64,000 bases of DNA from an uncultured Carboxylicivirga sp. (lineage in GTDB: Bacteria > Bacteroidota > Bacteroidia > Bacteroidales > Marinilabiliaceae): positions 620,001 through 684,000 of the forward strand of contig CANNEA010000002.1 in assembly GCA_947503525.1 (NCBI GenBank). Direction: 5' to 3'. The notes beneath the pieces are model-generated. The model saw only the letters and a list, made by a program, of their open reading frames with translations, was not told where the DNA came from and ran no database searches. The translations under genes and the position numbers were made by a program. This document shows, in pieces, positions 46,541 through 53,352 of the stretch (positions are counted from its first letter, which is position 1; every line of letters starts with the position of its first letter).

Positions 46541-47419
46541 TTACGACTTGGCTTTATCCAATATACTTATTATTTTTTCCAAATCATCGTCTGATCCAAA
46601 AGGTATTACAATCTTACCTTTCCCTTGTTCAGTGCGACTAAATTGGATATTTGTTTGAAAAAATGTAGATAATTGCGATTTGAGTTCTTTATATTCTTCT
46701 GAATCCTGAGCTTTGTTTTTAGAAGCGCTCTTTGGAGCCTTTTCAGTATTTAGCTCGCGTACCATTTCCTCTACCTTACGTACCGACAAATCATTTTTGA
46801 TGGTTTCATCAAATATCATAAGTTGAGCTCTGGTATCGTCAATGCCAATAATAGCCCTTGCATGCCCCATTCCTATTTGCTTCGAAACCAAACCAAGTTG
46901 AACTTCTGCAGGTAGTTTTAATAAACGCAAGTAATTCGATATAGTTGAGCGTTTTTTACCAACACGCTCCGACATGCTCTCCTGCGTTAGTTTGCACTCT
47001 TCCATCAGGCGCTGATAACTAATCGCCACCTCTATTGGATCTAAGTCTTCGCGCTGAATATTTTCAACCAATGCCATTTCCAGCATGGTATCGTCATCAG
47101 CTGTTCGAATGTATGCAGGTACTTTGTCTAAGCCAGCTATTTTAGAAGCTCTGAAACGGCGCTCTCCGGCAATTAATTGATAACGATCTTTGCCTATTTT
47201 GCGCAAAGTTAATGGTTGCACAATACCTATTTTTTCGATAGATGCTGCTAACTCATTAAGGCGTTCTTCATCAAATTTAGTTCGTGGCTGCCAAGGATTG
47301 GCCTCTATCATAGATACCTCAATTTCGTTGATTGAAGCAGCCGGTTTATTTTGTACTACTTCATCAGCACTTTCAATTAATGCACCTAAACCACGTCCTA
47401 AAGCATTCTTTCTCGCCAT
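46541..47419 (-). CDS. parB: Chromosome partitioning protein ParB
   Basis: 292-residue CTP-dependent clamp that loads at parS. Regions: N-terminal ParA-interacting tip (ALGRGLGALIES), CTPase/ParB domain with PWQPRTKFDEERLNELAASI and the arginine patch AGERRFRAS, central helix-turn-helix KLTQESMSERVGKKRSTISNYLRLL, and a C-terminal dimer domain after a polar linker (~210-235). Downstream of parA with a 30-bp gap. No convincing parS sequence is seen in the window. Confidence 0.96.
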   Translation of the reverse strand: MARKNALGRGLGALIESADEVVQNKPAASINEIEVSMIEANPWQPRTKFDEERLNELAASIEKIGIVQPLTLRKIGKDRYQLIAGERRFRASKIAGLDKVPAYIRTADDDTMLEMALVENIQREDLDPIEVAISYQRLMEECKLTQESMSERVGKKRSTISNYLRLLKLPAEVQLGLVSKQIGMGHARAIIGIDDTRAQLMIFDETIKNDLSVRKVEEMVRELNTEKAPKSASKNKAQDSEEYKELKSQLSTFFQTNIQFSRTEQGKGKIVIPFGSDDDLEKIISILDKAKS

Positions 47420-47449
47420 CTTATCTTATCAATTGATTAATTAGAATAT

Positions 47450-48229
47450 TTATTTTTTTACTGCCAGATTGTTTTTCTTTAGCAATTCTCTTGCCAAATT
47501 TAAATAATTCACTGCCCCTTTTGAAGTGGCGTCGTACATTACCACGGCCTTACCATAACTAGGTGCTTCACTTAATTTTATGTTACGCGAAACCAAAGTT
47601 TCAAATACCATATCCTGGAAGTGTCGTTGAACCTCTTCAACCACCTGATTTGATAGATTTAATCGCGAATCGTACATGGTCAATAAGAAGCCTTCAATTT
47701 CCAACTCCGGGTTCAATCGGCTTTGAATAATCTTAACTGTATTTAATAATTTACCAAGACCTTCCAAAGCAAAATACTCGCATTGAACCGGTATGATAAC
47801 TGAGTCAGCTGCAGTAAGTGCATTTACAGTAATTAAACCAAGCGACGGAGAACAATCGATAAGGATGAAATCGAACTGATCGCGCAATTTCTCAAGCACT
47901 CCGCTAAGTACCTTTTCCCGGTTTGGTAAGTTGAGCATTTCAATCTCTGCACCAACCAAATCAATGTGAGAAGGGAGTACATATAAATGATCAATTTCCG
48001 TTTTTAATATCGCTTTTGTTGGTTCAATTCCATCTACGATACATTCGTATATGCTGTTTTCAACTTCCTTAAGGTCAAACCCTAATCCGGATGTTGCATT
48101 GGCCTGAGGATCTGCATCAACAATAAGGACATTGTATTCCAAAACAGCTAAGCTAGCTGCAAGGTTGATAGCAGTAGTTGTCTTTCCTACTCCTCCTTTT
48201 TGGTTTGCCAAAGCAATTATCTTACCCAT
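47450..48229 (-). CDS. parA: Chromosome partitioning ATPase ParA
   Basis: 259-residue deviant Walker ATPase that forms gradients on the nucleoid and moves ParB-bound origins. Walker A is ANQKGGVGKTTTAINLAA with the signature Lys; A-prime VLIVDADPQANATSG; Walker B IDCSPSLGLITVNAL. The length matches Soj. First gene of the par operon; the heptose kinase gene upstream ends 140 bp away in the same direction. Confidence 0.96.
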   Translation of the reverse strand: MGKIIALANQKGGVGKTTTAINLAASLAVLEYNVLIVDADPQANATSGLGFDLKEVENSIYECIVDGIEPTKAILKTEIDHLYVLPSHIDLVGAEIEMLNLPNREKVLSGVLEKLRDQFDFILIDCSPSLGLITVNALTAADSVIIPVQCEYFALEGLGKLLNTVKIIQSRLNPELEIEGFLLTMYDSRLNLSNQVVEEVQRHFQDMVFETLVSRNIKLSEAPSYGKAVVMYDATSKGAVNYLNLARELLKKNNLAVKK

Positions 48230-48369: not shown

Positions 48370-49365
48370 TTAGCTTAATTTAATTAGGCATTCTTCCAAT
48401 AGCTCCTGTTTATCAATTGGTACAACGCCCGGATGTTCACAAACTAGACCTCCCGCCATATTGGCAATCGAAGCTACAAACTTAGCGTCCAAACCAGAGG
48501 CCAGACAAAGAGCACTTACGCTTATAACGGTGTCACCAGCTCCTGATACATCGGCTATACTACGTATTTCAGCAGGTATAAAATGTCGGCTTTGATTGTT
48601 TATTATCATTACTCCACGCCGAGCCATGGTGACCATAAGATTGCCAAGATCCTGTTGATTCAAAAATGTTTTAGCGGCATTCAACATTTCAGCTTGATTA
48701 TCCGGATCAATATCCAGTTTACAACCCTCGAAAAATTCTTTTAAATTAGGCTTAAAGAAAGTGACTTCGCGATAAGCCAGGTAGTTCCGCTTTTTAGGAT
48801 CCACTAAGGTTGGAATTCCTTTCTGATTGGCCAGTTCAATTGTAGAGCTGATGGAAGAAGGTGTTAAGGTGCCTTTGTCATAGTCTTCAAAAATAATGGC
48901 ATCAATCTTATAGTTATCCAATAAATTGGCAATATGCTTTTGTAATTTAAGCTCCAGTTTTTCAGTCATTGGATCATCTTCCTCTTCATCCACCCGTAAT
49001 AAATGTTGATTCTGACTGATGATACGTGTTTTTACCGTTGTTTTTCTTTGACTGGAAGAGATGATGCCATCGGCTGGAAGATTTCGTTTATCCAGCAAAG
49101 TTTTAAATATTGAGCCGGCATCATCGTTTCCTACAACGGAGCAAAGTATTGGTGTAGCCCCAAGCGATTGGATATTTAGCGCAACATTGGCCGCTCCACC
49201 TAATCGATTTTCACGACCCGTAGTGGCAATAATTGGAACAGGAGCCTCCGGCGAAATGCGATTAACATCACCCCAAAGGTAGGAGTCGATCATTACATCA
49301 CCAATCACAAGAATATGCATCTTGTCAAATCCATCAAACAACTGAGAAAACTCCTTACGTGTCAT
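48370..49365 (-). CDS. D-glycero-beta-D-manno-heptose-7-phosphate kinase (PfkB family)
   Basis: 331-residue sugar kinase corresponding to domain I of HldE/RfaE. It phosphorylates heptose 7-phosphate at C1 for ADP-heptose synthesis. Motifs: LVIGDVMIDSYLWGDVNRISPEAPVPI, the anion hole GGAANVALNIQSLG, NFxKP region VTFFKPNLKEFF, and ADVSGAGDTVISV with the catalytic Asp. The adenylyltransferase domain of HldE is absent, so it must be encoded elsewhere. Complements gmhA at 7559-8134. Confidence 0.88.
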   Translation of the reverse strand: MTRKEFSQLFDGFDKMHILVIGDVMIDSYLWGDVNRISPEAPVPIIATTGRENRLGGAANVALNIQSLGATPILCSVVGNDDAGSIFKTLLDKRNLPADGIISSSQRKTTVKTRIISQNQHLLRVDEEEDDPMTEKLELKLQKHIANLLDNYKIDAIIFEDYDKGTLTPSSISSTIELANQKGIPTLVDPKKRNYLAYREVTFFKPNLKEFFEGCKLDIDPDNQAEMLNAAKTFLNQQDLGNLMVTMARRGVMIINNQSRHFIPAEIRSIADVSGAGDTVISVSALCLASGLDAKFVASIANMAGGLVCEHPGVVPIDKQELLEECLIKLS

Positions 49366-49498
49366 GCTAAAAAAAATTTGCCTAAAGATAGAAACTAGTA
49401 CCGAGTTGGTAAAGTTAAAAGTATAAAGTTTAAATATAGATGGATTAAAGTGCTTATTTTAAGGTCCGAAGCGCATAGTCCGAAGCCCCTTCCTTACC

Positions 49499-49528
49499 TA
49501 AAAAGCCGGAAGTCATCTCCCGGCCTTA
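49499..49528 (-). terminator. Intrinsic terminator
   Basis: GCCGGGA/TTCCGGC stem (7 bp with one G-U on the minus strand), 6-nt loop, then five T. It lies about 25 bp past the stop of the unknown 230-residue gene. Confidence 0.8.
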
Positions 49529-49552
49529 TTATAAGCTATCCTGTAAGTAAGT

Positions 49553-50245
49553 TTAAGAAACCACTAAATCATCATCGCCATTGTTTGACGACTTTGGTCT
49601 GGGAAAGGTATATTTAACTAATTGTTCCTGAGAATCTGTATAAATTATTCGAGCAATGTCATTTACAGGTTTAAGTATGCTATACAATTGGTTGAGTTTT
49701 TCAACTCTGTTGCTGGTAATAACACCGCGTTGTTTCTTGAACTGCTCCTGATTTACGTTATCGGCACTTAACTTTTCGCCCAGCGGCTTAACGCTATCCA
49801 AAACAGCTTCACTGCAGCCGCCTTCTATCAGCTCGCTTTTGTATTTTTGAACCATCCCATCCAGGTCCTTCATAAATACAATCATCTTAGGCACATTCTT
49901 ACGTACCTTATCAATATCATTTAGCCCAAACTGATTTTGAACAGGCATTTTATCAGCAAACACTTTTTTTACAAAAAAACGAATGGTTTTAAATGTCACA
50001 TTACATTGAGACAAAGTTTCATTTACCGTTTCGGTGAGTTCGGTCATTTCATCTATTACCACATTATCGGTTCTGATACTCATCACATCCTCAATGGCTA
50101 CAGAGATTATGTGAGGATAATCATCAGCAAAGGTGCTGTCAAAAGCCTTAAAGGCATGCAAATCATTTGTTAAATTTTTCGATACAACACCACCAAAGCT
50201 AAGGAGTTGAGCATCTCCAAAATTAAAGATTCTTTCAGTACTCAT
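49553..50245 (-). CDS. Uncharacterised helical protein downstream of a motif array
   Basis: I do not recognise this 230-residue protein with certainty; it may belong to DUF6261 or a related Bacteroidetes-only family. It has no signal peptide or membrane segment. The predicted structure is mostly long amphipathic helices (DEMTELTETVNETLSQCNVTF, DIDKVRKNVPKMIVFMKDLD, RVEKLNQLYSILKPVNDIAR), as in a helical bundle, and the acidic tail NNGDDDLVVS. It has a terminator downstream and starts 75 bp from the edge of the phased TTCCGA array, the most likely control region. It stands alone. Confidence 0.75.
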   Translation of the reverse strand: MSTERIFNFGDAQLLSFGGVVSKNLTNDLHAFKAFDSTFADDYPHIISVAIEDVMSIRTDNVVIDEMTELTETVNETLSQCNVTFKTIRFFVKKVFADKMPVQNQFGLNDIDKVRKNVPKMIVFMKDLDGMVQKYKSELIEGGCSEAVLDSVKPLGEKLSADNVNQEQFKKQRGVITSNRVEKLNQLYSILKPVNDIARIIYTDSQEQLVKYTFPRPKSSNNGDDDLVVS

Positions 50246-50319
50246 ATTCTTAAAATTTAGATGTTAATAAATTGATTTAAAGAGTTGGTATTTGAAGTAA
50301 ATACAGGATAGACGGAGGT

Positions 50320-50541
50320 TTCTGTTACCTTATTAAGGTTTTCCGAATTATATGAATGCATTCCGAGATAGGATTGACCATTTCCGATGCGTTTTAACAT
50401 ATTCCGAAGCCAAAAAGCTTTTATTAATCTACGGAAGGTTTTCGCTTATACCCGGAAAACATCAACTTACTTTCGGAAAACTTTAAATTAAGGTTGGAAA
50501 GTAGCTTCTTATGTGCGGTAAAGCTTAATACTAAGCTGAAA
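50320..50541. repeat. Phased TTCCGA motif array with dyad symmetry
   Basis: Four exact TTCCGA motifs start at 50341, 50361, 50382 and 50402 (spacing 20, 21, 20). After a 30-bp centre, inverted copies start at 50432 (CGGAAG), 50453 (CGGAAA), 50474 (CGGAAA) and 50495 (TGGAAA), all 21 bp apart. Weaker copies extend outward: TTCTGT at 50320, CGGTAA at 50516, CTGAAA at 50536. Each left motif mirrors a right one about ~50419.5. Between motifs the sequence is not conserved, unlike a CRISPR or a simple tandem repeat. The 20-21 bp step equals two helical turns, so motifs face the same side of DNA. Confidence 0.8.
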
Positions 50542-50837
50542 ACACTAACTTATTGAGCTTACTTGATAATACTTTGCAGGATAAAATAATGGATATACTC
50601 CGGCGGGTAAGAAGAGTTAGTAAATTCATAATAGTCTGGCGTAAAAGTTAAGTACTTACATAAAATTAAAAAGGCTTTAATTAAAAGTCAAGTGCAAAGA
50701 ACCATTATGAAGGAAAATTTCTTACTCAGCTTTCAAGTCGACAAGCTAAGCGATCAGCTCAGTGCTCAGCTCCGCTTCGACTCTTTTCTCTCTAATTCTA
50801 ATGATTGTGCTCCAGATACCTAAGGCCTACAACCTAG

Positions 50838-50853
50838 CCCGATAGCTATCGGG
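50838..50853. repeat. Palindrome CCCGATAGCTATCGGG
   Basis: Perfect 16-bp palindrome inside a CCTA-rich stretch (CCTACAACCTAG / CCTAACACCTAT). From memory this palindrome recurs in intergenic DNA of many Bacteroidetes, so it looks like a short extragenic repeat and possibly a terminator for priA, whose stop is 16 bp away. Genome copy number would need counting. Confidence 0.6.
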
Positions 50854-50868
50854 GCCTAACACCTATCC

Positions 50869-53352
50869 TTAAGCCGGATCAACATCAATTTGAAAGGTCA
50901 CAGAACGATATTTAGTCTGGGCCTGTAAGGAATTTATGGCTTCACGCATAAGCTGTTTAACTTTTACCGGAGAAGCTTTTTTCTCTAATTTGATCAATAT
51001 TTTTTTGATGTATTGGTTTTGAATACGATTAATTACCGGAGCCTGTGGACCAAGCACGCGATTGCCGAACATAGCCATTAGTTGCTTAGCCAAAAAGTAA
51101 GCAGCTTGGTTGGTTATTTGTTGGTCTTTGTGCTTAATGGTAATGTTGATTAATCGATAGTATGGAGGATATTTAAAAGTATGACGCTCCTCTATTTGTC
51201 CATTATAATGATTAATAAAATTGTGGTTGATCACATCCATAATAACCGGATGTTCAGGATTGGATGTTTGCAGAATAACCAAACCGCGTTTATGTTTTCG
51301 GCCTGCTCGTCCGCTCACCTGAGTCATTAATTGGTAACTGCGTTCAAATGCCCTGAAATCAGGATAATTGAGCATGTTGTCCGCATTCAGTATTCCTACA
51401 ACCCTCACGTTCTCAAAATCCAGACCTTTTGAAATCATCTGTGTTCCAATCAGGATATGAATTTTACCTTGCTCAAAATTACCGATGATTTTATCATAGG
51501 CCGATTTGCTTCGTGTGGTATCCAAATCCATACGGGCTACCTTATGATCCGGATAGATCAAGGCCATTTCTTCTTCGATTTTTTCTGTTCCAAAGCCTCG
51601 GGTTTCGATTGCCGGACTATGACAGGCCGGGCATATTTCGGGCAATTTTTCGGTGTGTTGGCAATAATGACATATCAATTGATTGTAGTGTTTGTGATAG
51701 GTCATGCTCACATCACAATTCACACATTTTGATACCCAAGCACATTGACCACATTCAATAAAAGGACTGAAACCACGCCTGTTTTGAAACAAAATAATTT
51801 GTTCTCCATCTTTTAAGGCCTGGTCCATATGTTCGATTAGCACAGGAGAAAAATGCGAATTCATTTTTTTTCTTCGTCGAGCCTCCCTGATATCAACAGC
51901 AATTATTTCGGGCATCTGAATGCCTTCATGTCTTTGCTTTAATTCAACCAATGCATATTTGCCTTGTTGGGCATTATAATACGATTCGATAGATGGAGTT
52001 GCTGTGCCTAAAAGTATTTTAGCTTTAAATAATTTAGCCAAAACAATGGCCGCGTCACGAGCATGATATCGAGGGGCAGGATCAAATTGCTTATAGGTGT
52101 TTTCGTGCTCTTCATCCACTATTATTAATCCCAGATTTTTAAAGGGTAAAAACACCGAAGAGCGAACGCCTAGTATGATTTGATAATTCTTTTCGTCCTG
52201 AAGATTGCGCCAAACCTCTACACGTTCAGCATCGGCAAACTTACTGTGGTAAATGCCCAGACTATTACCAAAATGTTTCTTGAGCCGTGTGGTAATTTGA
52301 GTGGTAAGCGCAATCTCCGGCAATAAATACAAAACTTGCTTGCCTTGTTTTAGCTGCTCATCAATGAGGTGCGTATATATCTCTGTCTTACCGCCGGACG
52401 TAACACCATGAAGCAGGCACACGTCCTTGCTCTCAAAGTTTTGCTTGATTTCAGTATATGCAGTTTGCTGTGCCGGGCTTAATATATGCGTTGCGAATTC
52501 TTCTTTTATGCTTAGGTCAAGTCGATCAATGTCTCGTTCATCTTCCTGAAGAATTTGCTTGACAAGTAATTCCTTTAATGCTCCCGTTGAACTATTATTC
52601 TGTTTTAATAATTCCTGTTTTTTCACAAGTGTTTTTTGTGATGCATTTTTAACTCCACCGGCTAAAGTCAGGAAACTCATTAGTAGCTCCAATTGTTTAG
52701 GAGCACGCGATAGCTTATCAAAGGCTTGTTGAAGCGCTTGCTCCGAACAACATTCACTATGAAGCGAAAGCACCTTTTCTGTTTTTGTTTTATAGCCTTC
52801 TTTTAGTTTTTCATTGACAAACAGGGCATTGTGTTCCAGTAAACGTTTAATAATAGGAAGACAATTCTTTAATCCGCTTAAGTGGTTTAATTCATTAATA
52901 GTGCAAACCTTTTTTGCTGCGACAATATCCAAAACTTTGTTCTCTGAATCGGATAGGGCTTGAACAGCAACAAATTCAGCATTATATATAACATTTGTTT
53001 CACTTTCCATTTTTAAGCCGGAAGGCAAAGCTGCTTTGTAAATTTCGCCAAGAGTACACTGATAATACTCAGCCAGCCAATCCCAAAATTTTAATTGAAA
53101 ACCATTAACCACAGGATCTGAATCCAATATGTTAGTAATTGCCTTAGTTTCGTATTCTTCAGGTTTATTTTGATGGATTTTATAAACGATACCGGAATAA
53201 GACTTCTTTTTTCCAAAAGGAACTACCACACGTTGTCCAACTTTGAGCTGTTTGTCCATTTCCGTGGGCACAATATATGTAAAGAGCCTTGGAAGAGGAA
53301 CTGGCAAGATGATATCTGCAAAGTGGTTTTCTGGAATCATTATTCTATTCAT
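50869..53352 (-). CDS. priA: Primosomal replication helicase PriA
   Basis: 827-residue helicase that restarts stalled forks by recruiting the primosome. Regions: N-terminal 3'-end binding domain (FADIILPVPLPRLFTYIVP and GQRVVVPFGKKKSYSGIV), Walker A LLHGVTSGGKTEIY, DEEH box VDEEHENTYKQ, the zinc-binding cysteines CGQC...CVNC...CHYC...CPAC, and motif VI region QVSGRAGRKHKRG. An in-frame ATG at 53379 exists; the ATG at 53352 (MNRIMIPEN) is chosen, but either is possible. Confidence 0.95.
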   Translation of the reverse strand: MNRIMIPENHFADIILPVPLPRLFTYIVPTEMDKQLKVGQRVVVPFGKKKSYSGIVYKIHQNKPEEYETKAITNILDSDPVVNGFQLKFWDWLAEYYQCTLGEIYKAALPSGLKMESETNVIYNAEFVAVQALSDSENKVLDIVAAKKVCTINELNHLSGLKNCLPIIKRLLEHNALFVNEKLKEGYKTKTEKVLSLHSECCSEQALQQAFDKLSRAPKQLELLMSFLTLAGGVKNASQKTLVKKQELLKQNNSSTGALKELLVKQILQEDERDIDRLDLSIKEEFATHILSPAQQTAYTEIKQNFESKDVCLLHGVTSGGKTEIYTHLIDEQLKQGKQVLYLLPEIALTTQITTRLKKHFGNSLGIYHSKFADAERVEVWRNLQDEKNYQIILGVRSSVFLPFKNLGLIIVDEEHENTYKQFDPAPRYHARDAAIVLAKLFKAKILLGTATPSIESYYNAQQGKYALVELKQRHEGIQMPEIIAVDIREARRRKKMNSHFSPVLIEHMDQALKDGEQIILFQNRRGFSPFIECGQCAWVSKCVNCDVSMTYHKHYNQLICHYCQHTEKLPEICPACHSPAIETRGFGTEKIEEEMALIYPDHKVARMDLDTTRSKSAYDKIIGNFEQGKIHILIGTQMISKGLDFENVRVVGILNADNMLNYPDFRAFERSYQLMTQVSGRAGRKHKRGLVILQTSNPEHPVIMDVINHNFINHYNGQIEERHTFKYPPYYRLINITIKHKDQQITNQAAYFLAKQLMAMFGNRVLGPQAPVINRIQNQYIKKILIKLEKKASPVKVKQLMREAINSLQAQTKYRSVTFQIDVDPA

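Follow-up and report, generated by a model that had tools for sequence, protein, structure and literature searches.

The nearest working models for the locus described here are the ParR/parC partition systems (PMC9426499) and the BldC family of regulators (PMC5859096), as far as the excerpted text of these papers goes. In ParR/parC, direct-repeat arrays lie upstream of genes, proteins are specific for their cognate arrays, and families with different repeats coexist; the repeats of pSK41 are 20 bp long (PMC9426499, excerpt). BldC binds cooperatively and head to tail, through a MerR-type winged helix, to direct repeats that are present in variable number and spaced at one helical turn per repeat (PMC5859096, excerpt). 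A step of 20-22 bp is known from LytTR proteins, which bind 9-bp direct repeats separated by an 11-13 bp spacer, as a site pair with half-sites of the ACC(A/G)CTTAT type (PMC6193735, excerpt), and TAACTGA heptamers are described as sporadic intergenic direct repeats that precede genes without a common function, also in a few Bacteroidetes (PMC4679880, excerpt). No description of the pairing reported below, a PQLLE-type gene with a phased DNA array, was found among the best matches in the open-licence literature of PubMed Central.

The window (the whole stretch of 64,000 nucleotides that was analysed) contains the following features:

48370-49365, minus strand: flanking gene of a PfkB-family kinase, which we take to be HldE-like; outside the unit, and kept without it in two relatives
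49395-50863, no strand: segment comprising gene and array, missing in relatives G001 and G006, where priA adjoins the PfkB-type kinase gene (homology comparison)
49553-50245, minus strand: gene of a 230-aa all-helical protein, distantly related to NCBIfam NF052641 (PQLLE family) (profile match, structure model)
50315-50545, no strand: phased array of 11 sites (5 + 6 by orientation), steps mostly 20-21 bp, degenerate copies included (segmentation and lag test)
50341-50407, plus strand: first half-array, four exact TTCCGA
50432-50499, minus strand: second, inverted half-array, three CGGAA and one TGGAA
50869-53379, minus strand: flanking priA (primosomal helicase); outside the unit, and kept without it in two relatives

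The motif positions, the 20-21 bp steps and the mirror symmetry given in the initial annotation proved exact: TTCCGA begins at 50341, 50361, 50382 and 50402 (n = 4), CGGAA at 50432, 50453 and 50474 (n = 3) and TGGAA at 50495 (n = 1), and the TTCCG/CGGAA core pairs are mirrored about a centre at 50419-50420 (~50419.5). The degenerate copies said to prolong the period were recovered by segmentation, which extended the chain to 11 sites over about 50315-50545. Regularity was expressed as a chain score (for the best 5-mer, the longest forward chain plus the longest reverse-complement chain, with steps of 20-21 bp), which was 7 for the 623-bp intergenic region carrying the array and 2-4 in 200 other tiles of the window; out of 3000 dinucleotide shuffles of the intergenic region one scored 5 and the others 2-4, and the claimed periodicity thus withstood shuffling. 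Lag autocorrelation peaked at 42 (2 x 21) and was equalled by 1 of 1000 shuffles, corresponding under the rule of the family survey below (z of at least 4) to z = 3.8, so that the window array is not counted as positive there. The array is real, beyond chance and part of a family-wide pattern. A second occurrence of TTCCGA-N13..16-TTCCGA-N13..16-TTCCGA was not found in the 6.56-Mb genome.

Several described repeat types could be set aside at this point. A CRISPR array was rejected, as it had been in the initial annotation, identical repeats being absent (the inverted cores are degenerate) and no Cas model scoring over its cut-off in the five local proteins scanned. The further statement that the array is no tandem duplication stood for the degenerate copy in the window and failed for five homologous arrays (L015, L027, L030, L031 and L033), which are near-perfect repeats at a lag of 41-42 bp (77-83 of 84 bases); in the L032 array, 66 of 84 bases are identical at this lag. 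A plasmid iteron/Rep origin was rejected on the lack of an initiator domain over cut-off, on the position in a 1.36-Mb contig with housekeeping genes and on the lack of a plasmid match. The TAACTGA heptamers, which are similarly sporadic and intergenic, are a different system from the excerpted description (PMC4679880), as PQLLE arrays consist of 20-21 bp phased units and accompany one protein family.

The window protein matches NF052641 with 39.9 bits (E = 3.5e-10, residues 64-209), below the curated cut-off of 80 bits, and is a related outlying subfamily of the PQLLE family, not a member by cut-off; at E<=0.5, alignment A1 has 12 of its 15 members matching the profile (best 4.8e-13). Pfam gave nothing over cut-off for the protein, DNA-binding domains included (best 14 bits). 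Its AlphaFold model (pLDDT 89.7) is all helical, with long helices, and has no fold neighbours in the PDB or among viral models at E<=0.001. Family members of 205-222 residues are tandem duplicates, as hhalign finds their N-terminal half homologous to the C-terminal one (probability 98.8, E = 5e-17); a mirroring of variable zones between the two halves was not significant (rank 9 of 96 shifts). The structure alignment was made without L028, which has an internal stop, and the truncated L034. The window protein has a pI of 5.2, and the mean over 70 array-bearing proteins is likewise acidic (5.92). The MHY/F clade (for example L094, L185 and L187), which is mostly array-less, is basic (mean pI 9.37; 35 proteins).

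Both described models differ from the window in their protein. A BldC-type regulator was rejected on the all-helical model, the lack of a similar fold at E<=0.001 and the lack of a Pfam match over cut-off: the predicted structure of the window protein consists of long helices without the winged-helix domain described for BldC (PMC5859096, excerpt). A ParR/parC partition system was rejected because the unit holds one gene, whose protein has no Pfam match over cut-off; compared with the excerpted account of ParR/parC (PMC9426499), the window has neither a ParM motor nor a ribbon-helix-helix adaptor and is a chromosomal single-gene unit, and PQLLE arrays frequently have two orientations.

Array and gene are one unit, as both are missing at the window site in two same-genus relatives (G001 and G006). 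Homology to the window ends at 50864 (L055) or 50869 (L056) and restarts at 49394, and the distance from priA to the PfkB-type kinase gene is 278 and 323 bp in the two relatives, respectively, versus 1503 bp in the window. The two gaps contain no family gene, no core motif and no periodicity (best lag equalled by 66 and 51 of 200 shuffles). This comparison covers 2 of 13 same-genus loci, since priA is missing from the 1.5 kb preceding the kinase gene in the other 11, and the empty sites are compatible equally with gain or loss of the unit. The unit carries one gene only, and the surrounding genes are housekeeping genes. Two functions suggested in the initial annotation were not borne out by this delimitation: a chromosomal partition site, the nearby parAB genes lying outside the unit, and a recombination site, no recombinase gene lying inside it. 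The parA and parB genes, at 46541-48229, are about 1.3-3 kb from the family gene, and nothing ties either to the array. The nuclear extract named in the initial annotation is not applicable, the organism being a bacterium.

When upstream regions of the first homologues were read, phased arrays were seen at most of the close ones, with motifs that differ from the window's. In a first survey of 25 members, 16 showed periodicity (lags 21, 41, 42, 62 or 63), and the lag peak was unmatched in 1000 shuffles for 15 of the 25; the nine non-periodic members were L028 (internal stop), L010 (truncated), L029 (only 119 bp before the contig end) and six distant ones. For a larger survey 80 further family matches were fetched from among the matches listed, partial, broken and some weak ones being left out, so that this is not a random sample; upstream regions shorter than 400 bp (L179, L135) were omitted and L175 was not scorable. 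Members were called positive at z of at least 4 at a phased lag (period 20-22 bp or a multiple; 8 of the 54 tested lags count as phased). A significant phased upstream array was present in 73 of 146 members tested, and the 73 were among 79 that reached z of at least 4 at any lag. As controls, 154 other genes of the window and of loci L019-L034 were scored; two passed, and the upstream stretches of both overlap family arrays (L020, L032). Outside the MHY/F clade 70 of 111 members were positive, inside it 3 of 35, and in a clade that often stands in tandem with it none of nine, three of which showed no array by eye in about 870-1000 bp upstream. The protein can therefore exist without an array, half of the members tested lacking a significant one and two clades being nearly or wholly array-less. 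The broken genes L028 and L010/L034 had no significant array.

That the phased DNA array belongs to the PQLLE gene family is well supported; the link of the array to the protein at 49553-50245 that had been suspected from the window is supported too. The expectation that arrays with 19-22 bp spacing would accompany homologues of the protein was correct for spacing and co-occurrence and incorrect for TTCCGA, other motifs being used; relatives with the same spacing and another motif suggest a protein family in which each member is paired with a private DNA array. The distance between array and gene is flexible: L136 and L137 (genomes G390 and G391) encode proteins that are 98% identical and share largely the same array, which in L137 is separated from the gene by extra DNA (roughly 480-670 bp away, by eye).

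Motifs were compared for 67 of 81 segmented arrays (the 73 over the survey threshold plus 8 weaker ones added by hand, the window among them), with pairs below 40% protein identity as the baseline (95th percentile 0.45). Median motif similarity fell with protein identity, from 0.98 at 95% or more (1 pair) to 0.77 at 80-95% (5 pairs), 0.72 at 70-80% (6), 0.58 at 60-70% (21) and 0.39 at 50-60% (64), with 0.31-0.34 in the lower bins; 23 of the 33 pairs with at least 60% identity exceeded the 95th percentile of the baseline. Shared descent by itself would likewise make motif and protein diverge together. A stronger argument than the identity trend comes from paralogues, whose motifs are mostly unlike: for 35 same-genome pairs, a set without the loci that carry record names as labels (one of these being L014, from the window's own genome), median similarity was at baseline (0.34) and three pairs lay above the 95th percentile. 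The L165 protein is 79-84% identical to three others, yet the similarity of its motif to theirs is 0.33-0.45, at or below the threshold. Within group A (described below) the L157 and L165 proteins share 84% identity and differ in motif, and L165 is distinguished from L157, L163 and L164 by ten residues, of which four fall among the first 15. At one site shared by L237 and L238 (genomes G002 and G001) the flanking DNA is 95-97% identical (90% next to the array), but the family proteins share only 64% identity and the two arrays fail to align; the motifs are still related (0.62 versus 0.45 for the baseline 95th percentile), and either allele replacement or very fast change has occurred. A reader encoded in the unit would be the simplest account of the motif data, and the window unit encodes one protein. 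We give roughly even chances to the explanation that the array is a private multi-site binding platform of duplex DNA, forming one unit with the downstream gene and putatively read by its own PQLLE-type protein.

The geometry of the arrays points to sites on duplex DNA. In the 81 segmented arrays the mean single step was 20.89 bp, or 10.45 bp per turn (523 steps: 452 of 21 bp, 64 of 20 bp, 6 of 22 bp and 1 of 19 bp), a distribution that is partly built in, segmentation having been confined to same-strand steps of 19-22 or 40-43 bp; the lag tests were unrestricted and also gave periods of 20, 41 and 62. A coding repeat was rejected, as these periods and the 20/21 mix of the window break the reading frame. 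Both orientations, with at least two sites each, occur in 27 of the 81 arrays, with a single switch in 24 of these, and the units were concluded to be double-stranded DNA sites with free orientation. The two-turn phasing that puts all sites on one face of the DNA, and the multi-site protein-binding platform read from it in the initial annotation, are thus upheld; of CRISPR, coding repeats, an RNA hairpin and duplex sites on one face, the evidence favours the last. Were the array instead to work as RNA, repeats in a transcribed leader would bind the protein, in the manner of type III toxin-antitoxin RNA or CsrB-like sponges. Type III toxin-antitoxin systems have RNA repeats that all run one way, with a terminator ahead of the toxin gene; they resemble the PQLLE units in having short tandem repeats upstream of, and co-varying with, a single gene, and their protein fold is unrelated to that of the window protein. 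They were rejected, since the window array runs in both orientations and terminator-like hairpins between array and gene occur at 3 of the 81 loci (versus 0-1 in shuffles), the window not among them. Such hairpins speak for an RNA as far as they go, 78 loci lacking one, and so does the activator operator upstream of the array at the group A loci described below, which probably places the array in a transcribed leader there. Two-orientation arrays folded better than shuffles (27 arrays, mean z -2.27; 13 below -2; window -3.07), one-orientation arrays little better (53 arrays, mean z -0.87), and inverted cores alone could be sufficient for this difference. Outside the core, mirror-paired units were no more complementary than others (0.369 versus 0.363, p = 0.65; 24 arrays), and on this result an RNA hairpin was rejected despite the favourable folding energies. 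A dedicated short array transcript, for which a promoter box and a terminator were seen by eye at a few loci, is not general given the three terminators and the lack of promoter-box enrichment near arrays (8 of 81 loci versus 8.9 expected). Rfam had no match at E<=1 in 49000-52000. As there is also no evident reason for a 20.9-bp step in single-stranded RNA, and as 27 arrays have both orientations, an RNA role is improbable. Even less credit, very little indeed, is due to neutral satellite DNA hitch-hiking beside the gene: the 41-42 bp higher-order repeats suggest unequal exchange and the spacers drift, as a satellite would, but half of the tested members share the same period although their motifs are unlike, no control gene has an array independent of a family array, orientation switches occur and two broken genes have no significant array.

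If the sites are read as duplex DNA, the reader might be a transcription factor other than the PQLLE protein, such as one of the LytTR type, whose repeats share the step of the array (PMC6193735, excerpt). Five loci (group A, L227-L231) all have a single-domain LytTR gene upstream of their array, the other neighbours mostly differing (the assignment is by Pfam for three and by homology for two). All five also have a canonical LytTR operator that is separate from, and upstream of, the PQLLE array (12.3-16.0 with a profile of published half-sites, versus maxima of 9.7-11.5 in their own shuffles), and the array therefore needs another reader; by inference, LytTR activates the transcript in group A, and the PQLLE array sits between the LytTR operator and the start codon. 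A first LytTR profile, in which 13 of 23 half-sites came from local loci (four of them group A), had likewise shown the separate group A operators and had given LytTR-like pairs at 12 of 81 arrays versus 2 of 65 elsewhere in the family; repeated with published half-sites only, the counts were 9 of 81 and 7 of 65, that is, no commoner at arrays. For L030, L031 and L020, LytTR-like pairs formed by array units outscore the corresponding shuffles. The window array has the 20-22 bp step of LytTR operators (20-21 bp) and lacks the consensus half-sites, with no LytTR-like pair above shuffles (best 7.6 versus a maximum of 12.0 with the published profile, and 7.9 versus 11.4 with the first); it comprises 11 sites of another motif with no LytTR gene nearby, compared with the site pair of LytTR operators (PMC6193735, excerpt), which are present beside group A units. 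The window genome has 21 LytTR genes, one of them near a PQLLE gene that is not the window's, and the window unit has no second gene. LytTR as the general reader was rejected on the separate group A operators and the lack of an overall excess at arrays, and an operator of some separate factor is, on balance, rather doubtful. Still less likely is a centromere-like or nucleoid-anchoring array, onto which the protein would load as a DNA-architecture or partition factor. ParR/parC arrays with cognate specificity and 20-bp repeats in pSK41 lend it some plausibility (PMC9426499, excerpt), as does a sixth LytTR locus, in G004, where four 22-bp repeats and an HU-HIG gene fill the slot held by PQLLE in G005, ahead of endolysin and holin-type genes resembling those that follow the G005 unit; this single case hints that the occupant of the slot is a DNA-binding protein. 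Against it, the window unit has no motor gene, genomes hold up to 11 family matches (among the matches listed) at scattered sites, and three family proteins have no match in plasmid records.

LytTR-like direct repeats that recur about every 21 bp were also noticed at L228, L229, L231, L267, L269, L271, L272 and L273 (by eye; scored at group A only), starting at or just past the stop codon of the small LytTR gene. Phased repeats stand upstream of HU-HIG genes at L267 (four 22-bp copies) and at L277 (44-bp lag, z 9.4), one of six HU-HIG matches in the window genome.

Returning to the private duplex platform, the window protein is likely to be the reader of the array, and our best reading is that it would bind its own array cooperatively and control its own gene. 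The PQLLE-type protein itself would recognise the array, one 20-21 bp unit being occupied per bound copy, all on one face, with copies cooperating along each half-array, and the array-bound complex would most likely limit transcription of its own gene. The outcome would be a self-regulated, self-specific module able to coexist with paralogues because the motifs differ. The case for autoregulation rests on position, as no promoter box is enriched near arrays: in group A the array lies between the likely activator site and the start codon. Speaking against the protein as reader are its lack of a known DNA-binding domain over cut-off and its acidic pI, and the remote L137 array is a poorer fit to a local operator. 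If the protein does read the array, the family would be one of DNA-binding proteins without a recognised DNA-binding domain and would offer a natural panel of dozens of protein-array pairs in which specificity has been reset repeatedly, in one case between proteins that are 79-84% identical; the evolution of sequence specificity and the matching of array to reader would become directly testable questions.

PQLLE matches were present in at least 49 of 71 genomes of the window's family (several with 5-11 among the matches listed), in 9 of 79 genomes of another family and, phylum-wide, in 11 of 296 sampled genomes (at most nine candidates scored per genome); none of 14 control genomes had a match at E<=0.001, and four weak ones at E<=1 were not over cut-off. 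A viral, phage or plasmid origin was rejected, no match being found in viral contigs with alignments A2 and A6, in phages with the window protein or L112, or in plasmids with the window protein, L089 or L070. The neighbourhoods of other members point towards phage-host conflict, their genes also including OLD, cytosine methylases and Vsr. PADLOC at 1e-25 gave 99 model matches among 145 neighbours (28 loci) versus 4 among 138 genes (20 regions), counts that are a lead and not a rate, since models are redundant, related loci lack independence, the scan covered 145 of 176 neighbours and 138 of 154 control genes, the controls were hand-picked and all in the window's genus, and 9 of the 28 neighbour loci are from named records, several of other genera. 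With these defence-rich neighbourhoods the family is a candidate for studies of phage-host conflict in marine Bacteroidetes. A bolder proposal, which we consider unlikely, is that a PQLLE gene and its private array form a new class of single-gene chromosomal conflict module of Bacteroidota, in which a protein with a new DNA-binding fold would polymerise on the chromosomal array, the motif would be diversified by allele replacement, and the array-bound state would restrain the protein or sense attack on the host chromosome, antitoxin-like but made of DNA.

At L237, Septu PtuA/PtuB genes adjoin the unit. At three type II CRISPR-Cas loci (L241, L242 and L243, in G009, G008 and G005, respectively), the PQLLE gene separates cas9 from cas1 and cas2, the three cases forming one subgroup. 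L241 (L124 in the survey) passes the array threshold, and L242 and L243 (L147 and L152) fail it. At L241 and L242 a transposase-like gene, presumably REP-associated, adjoins the PQLLE gene.
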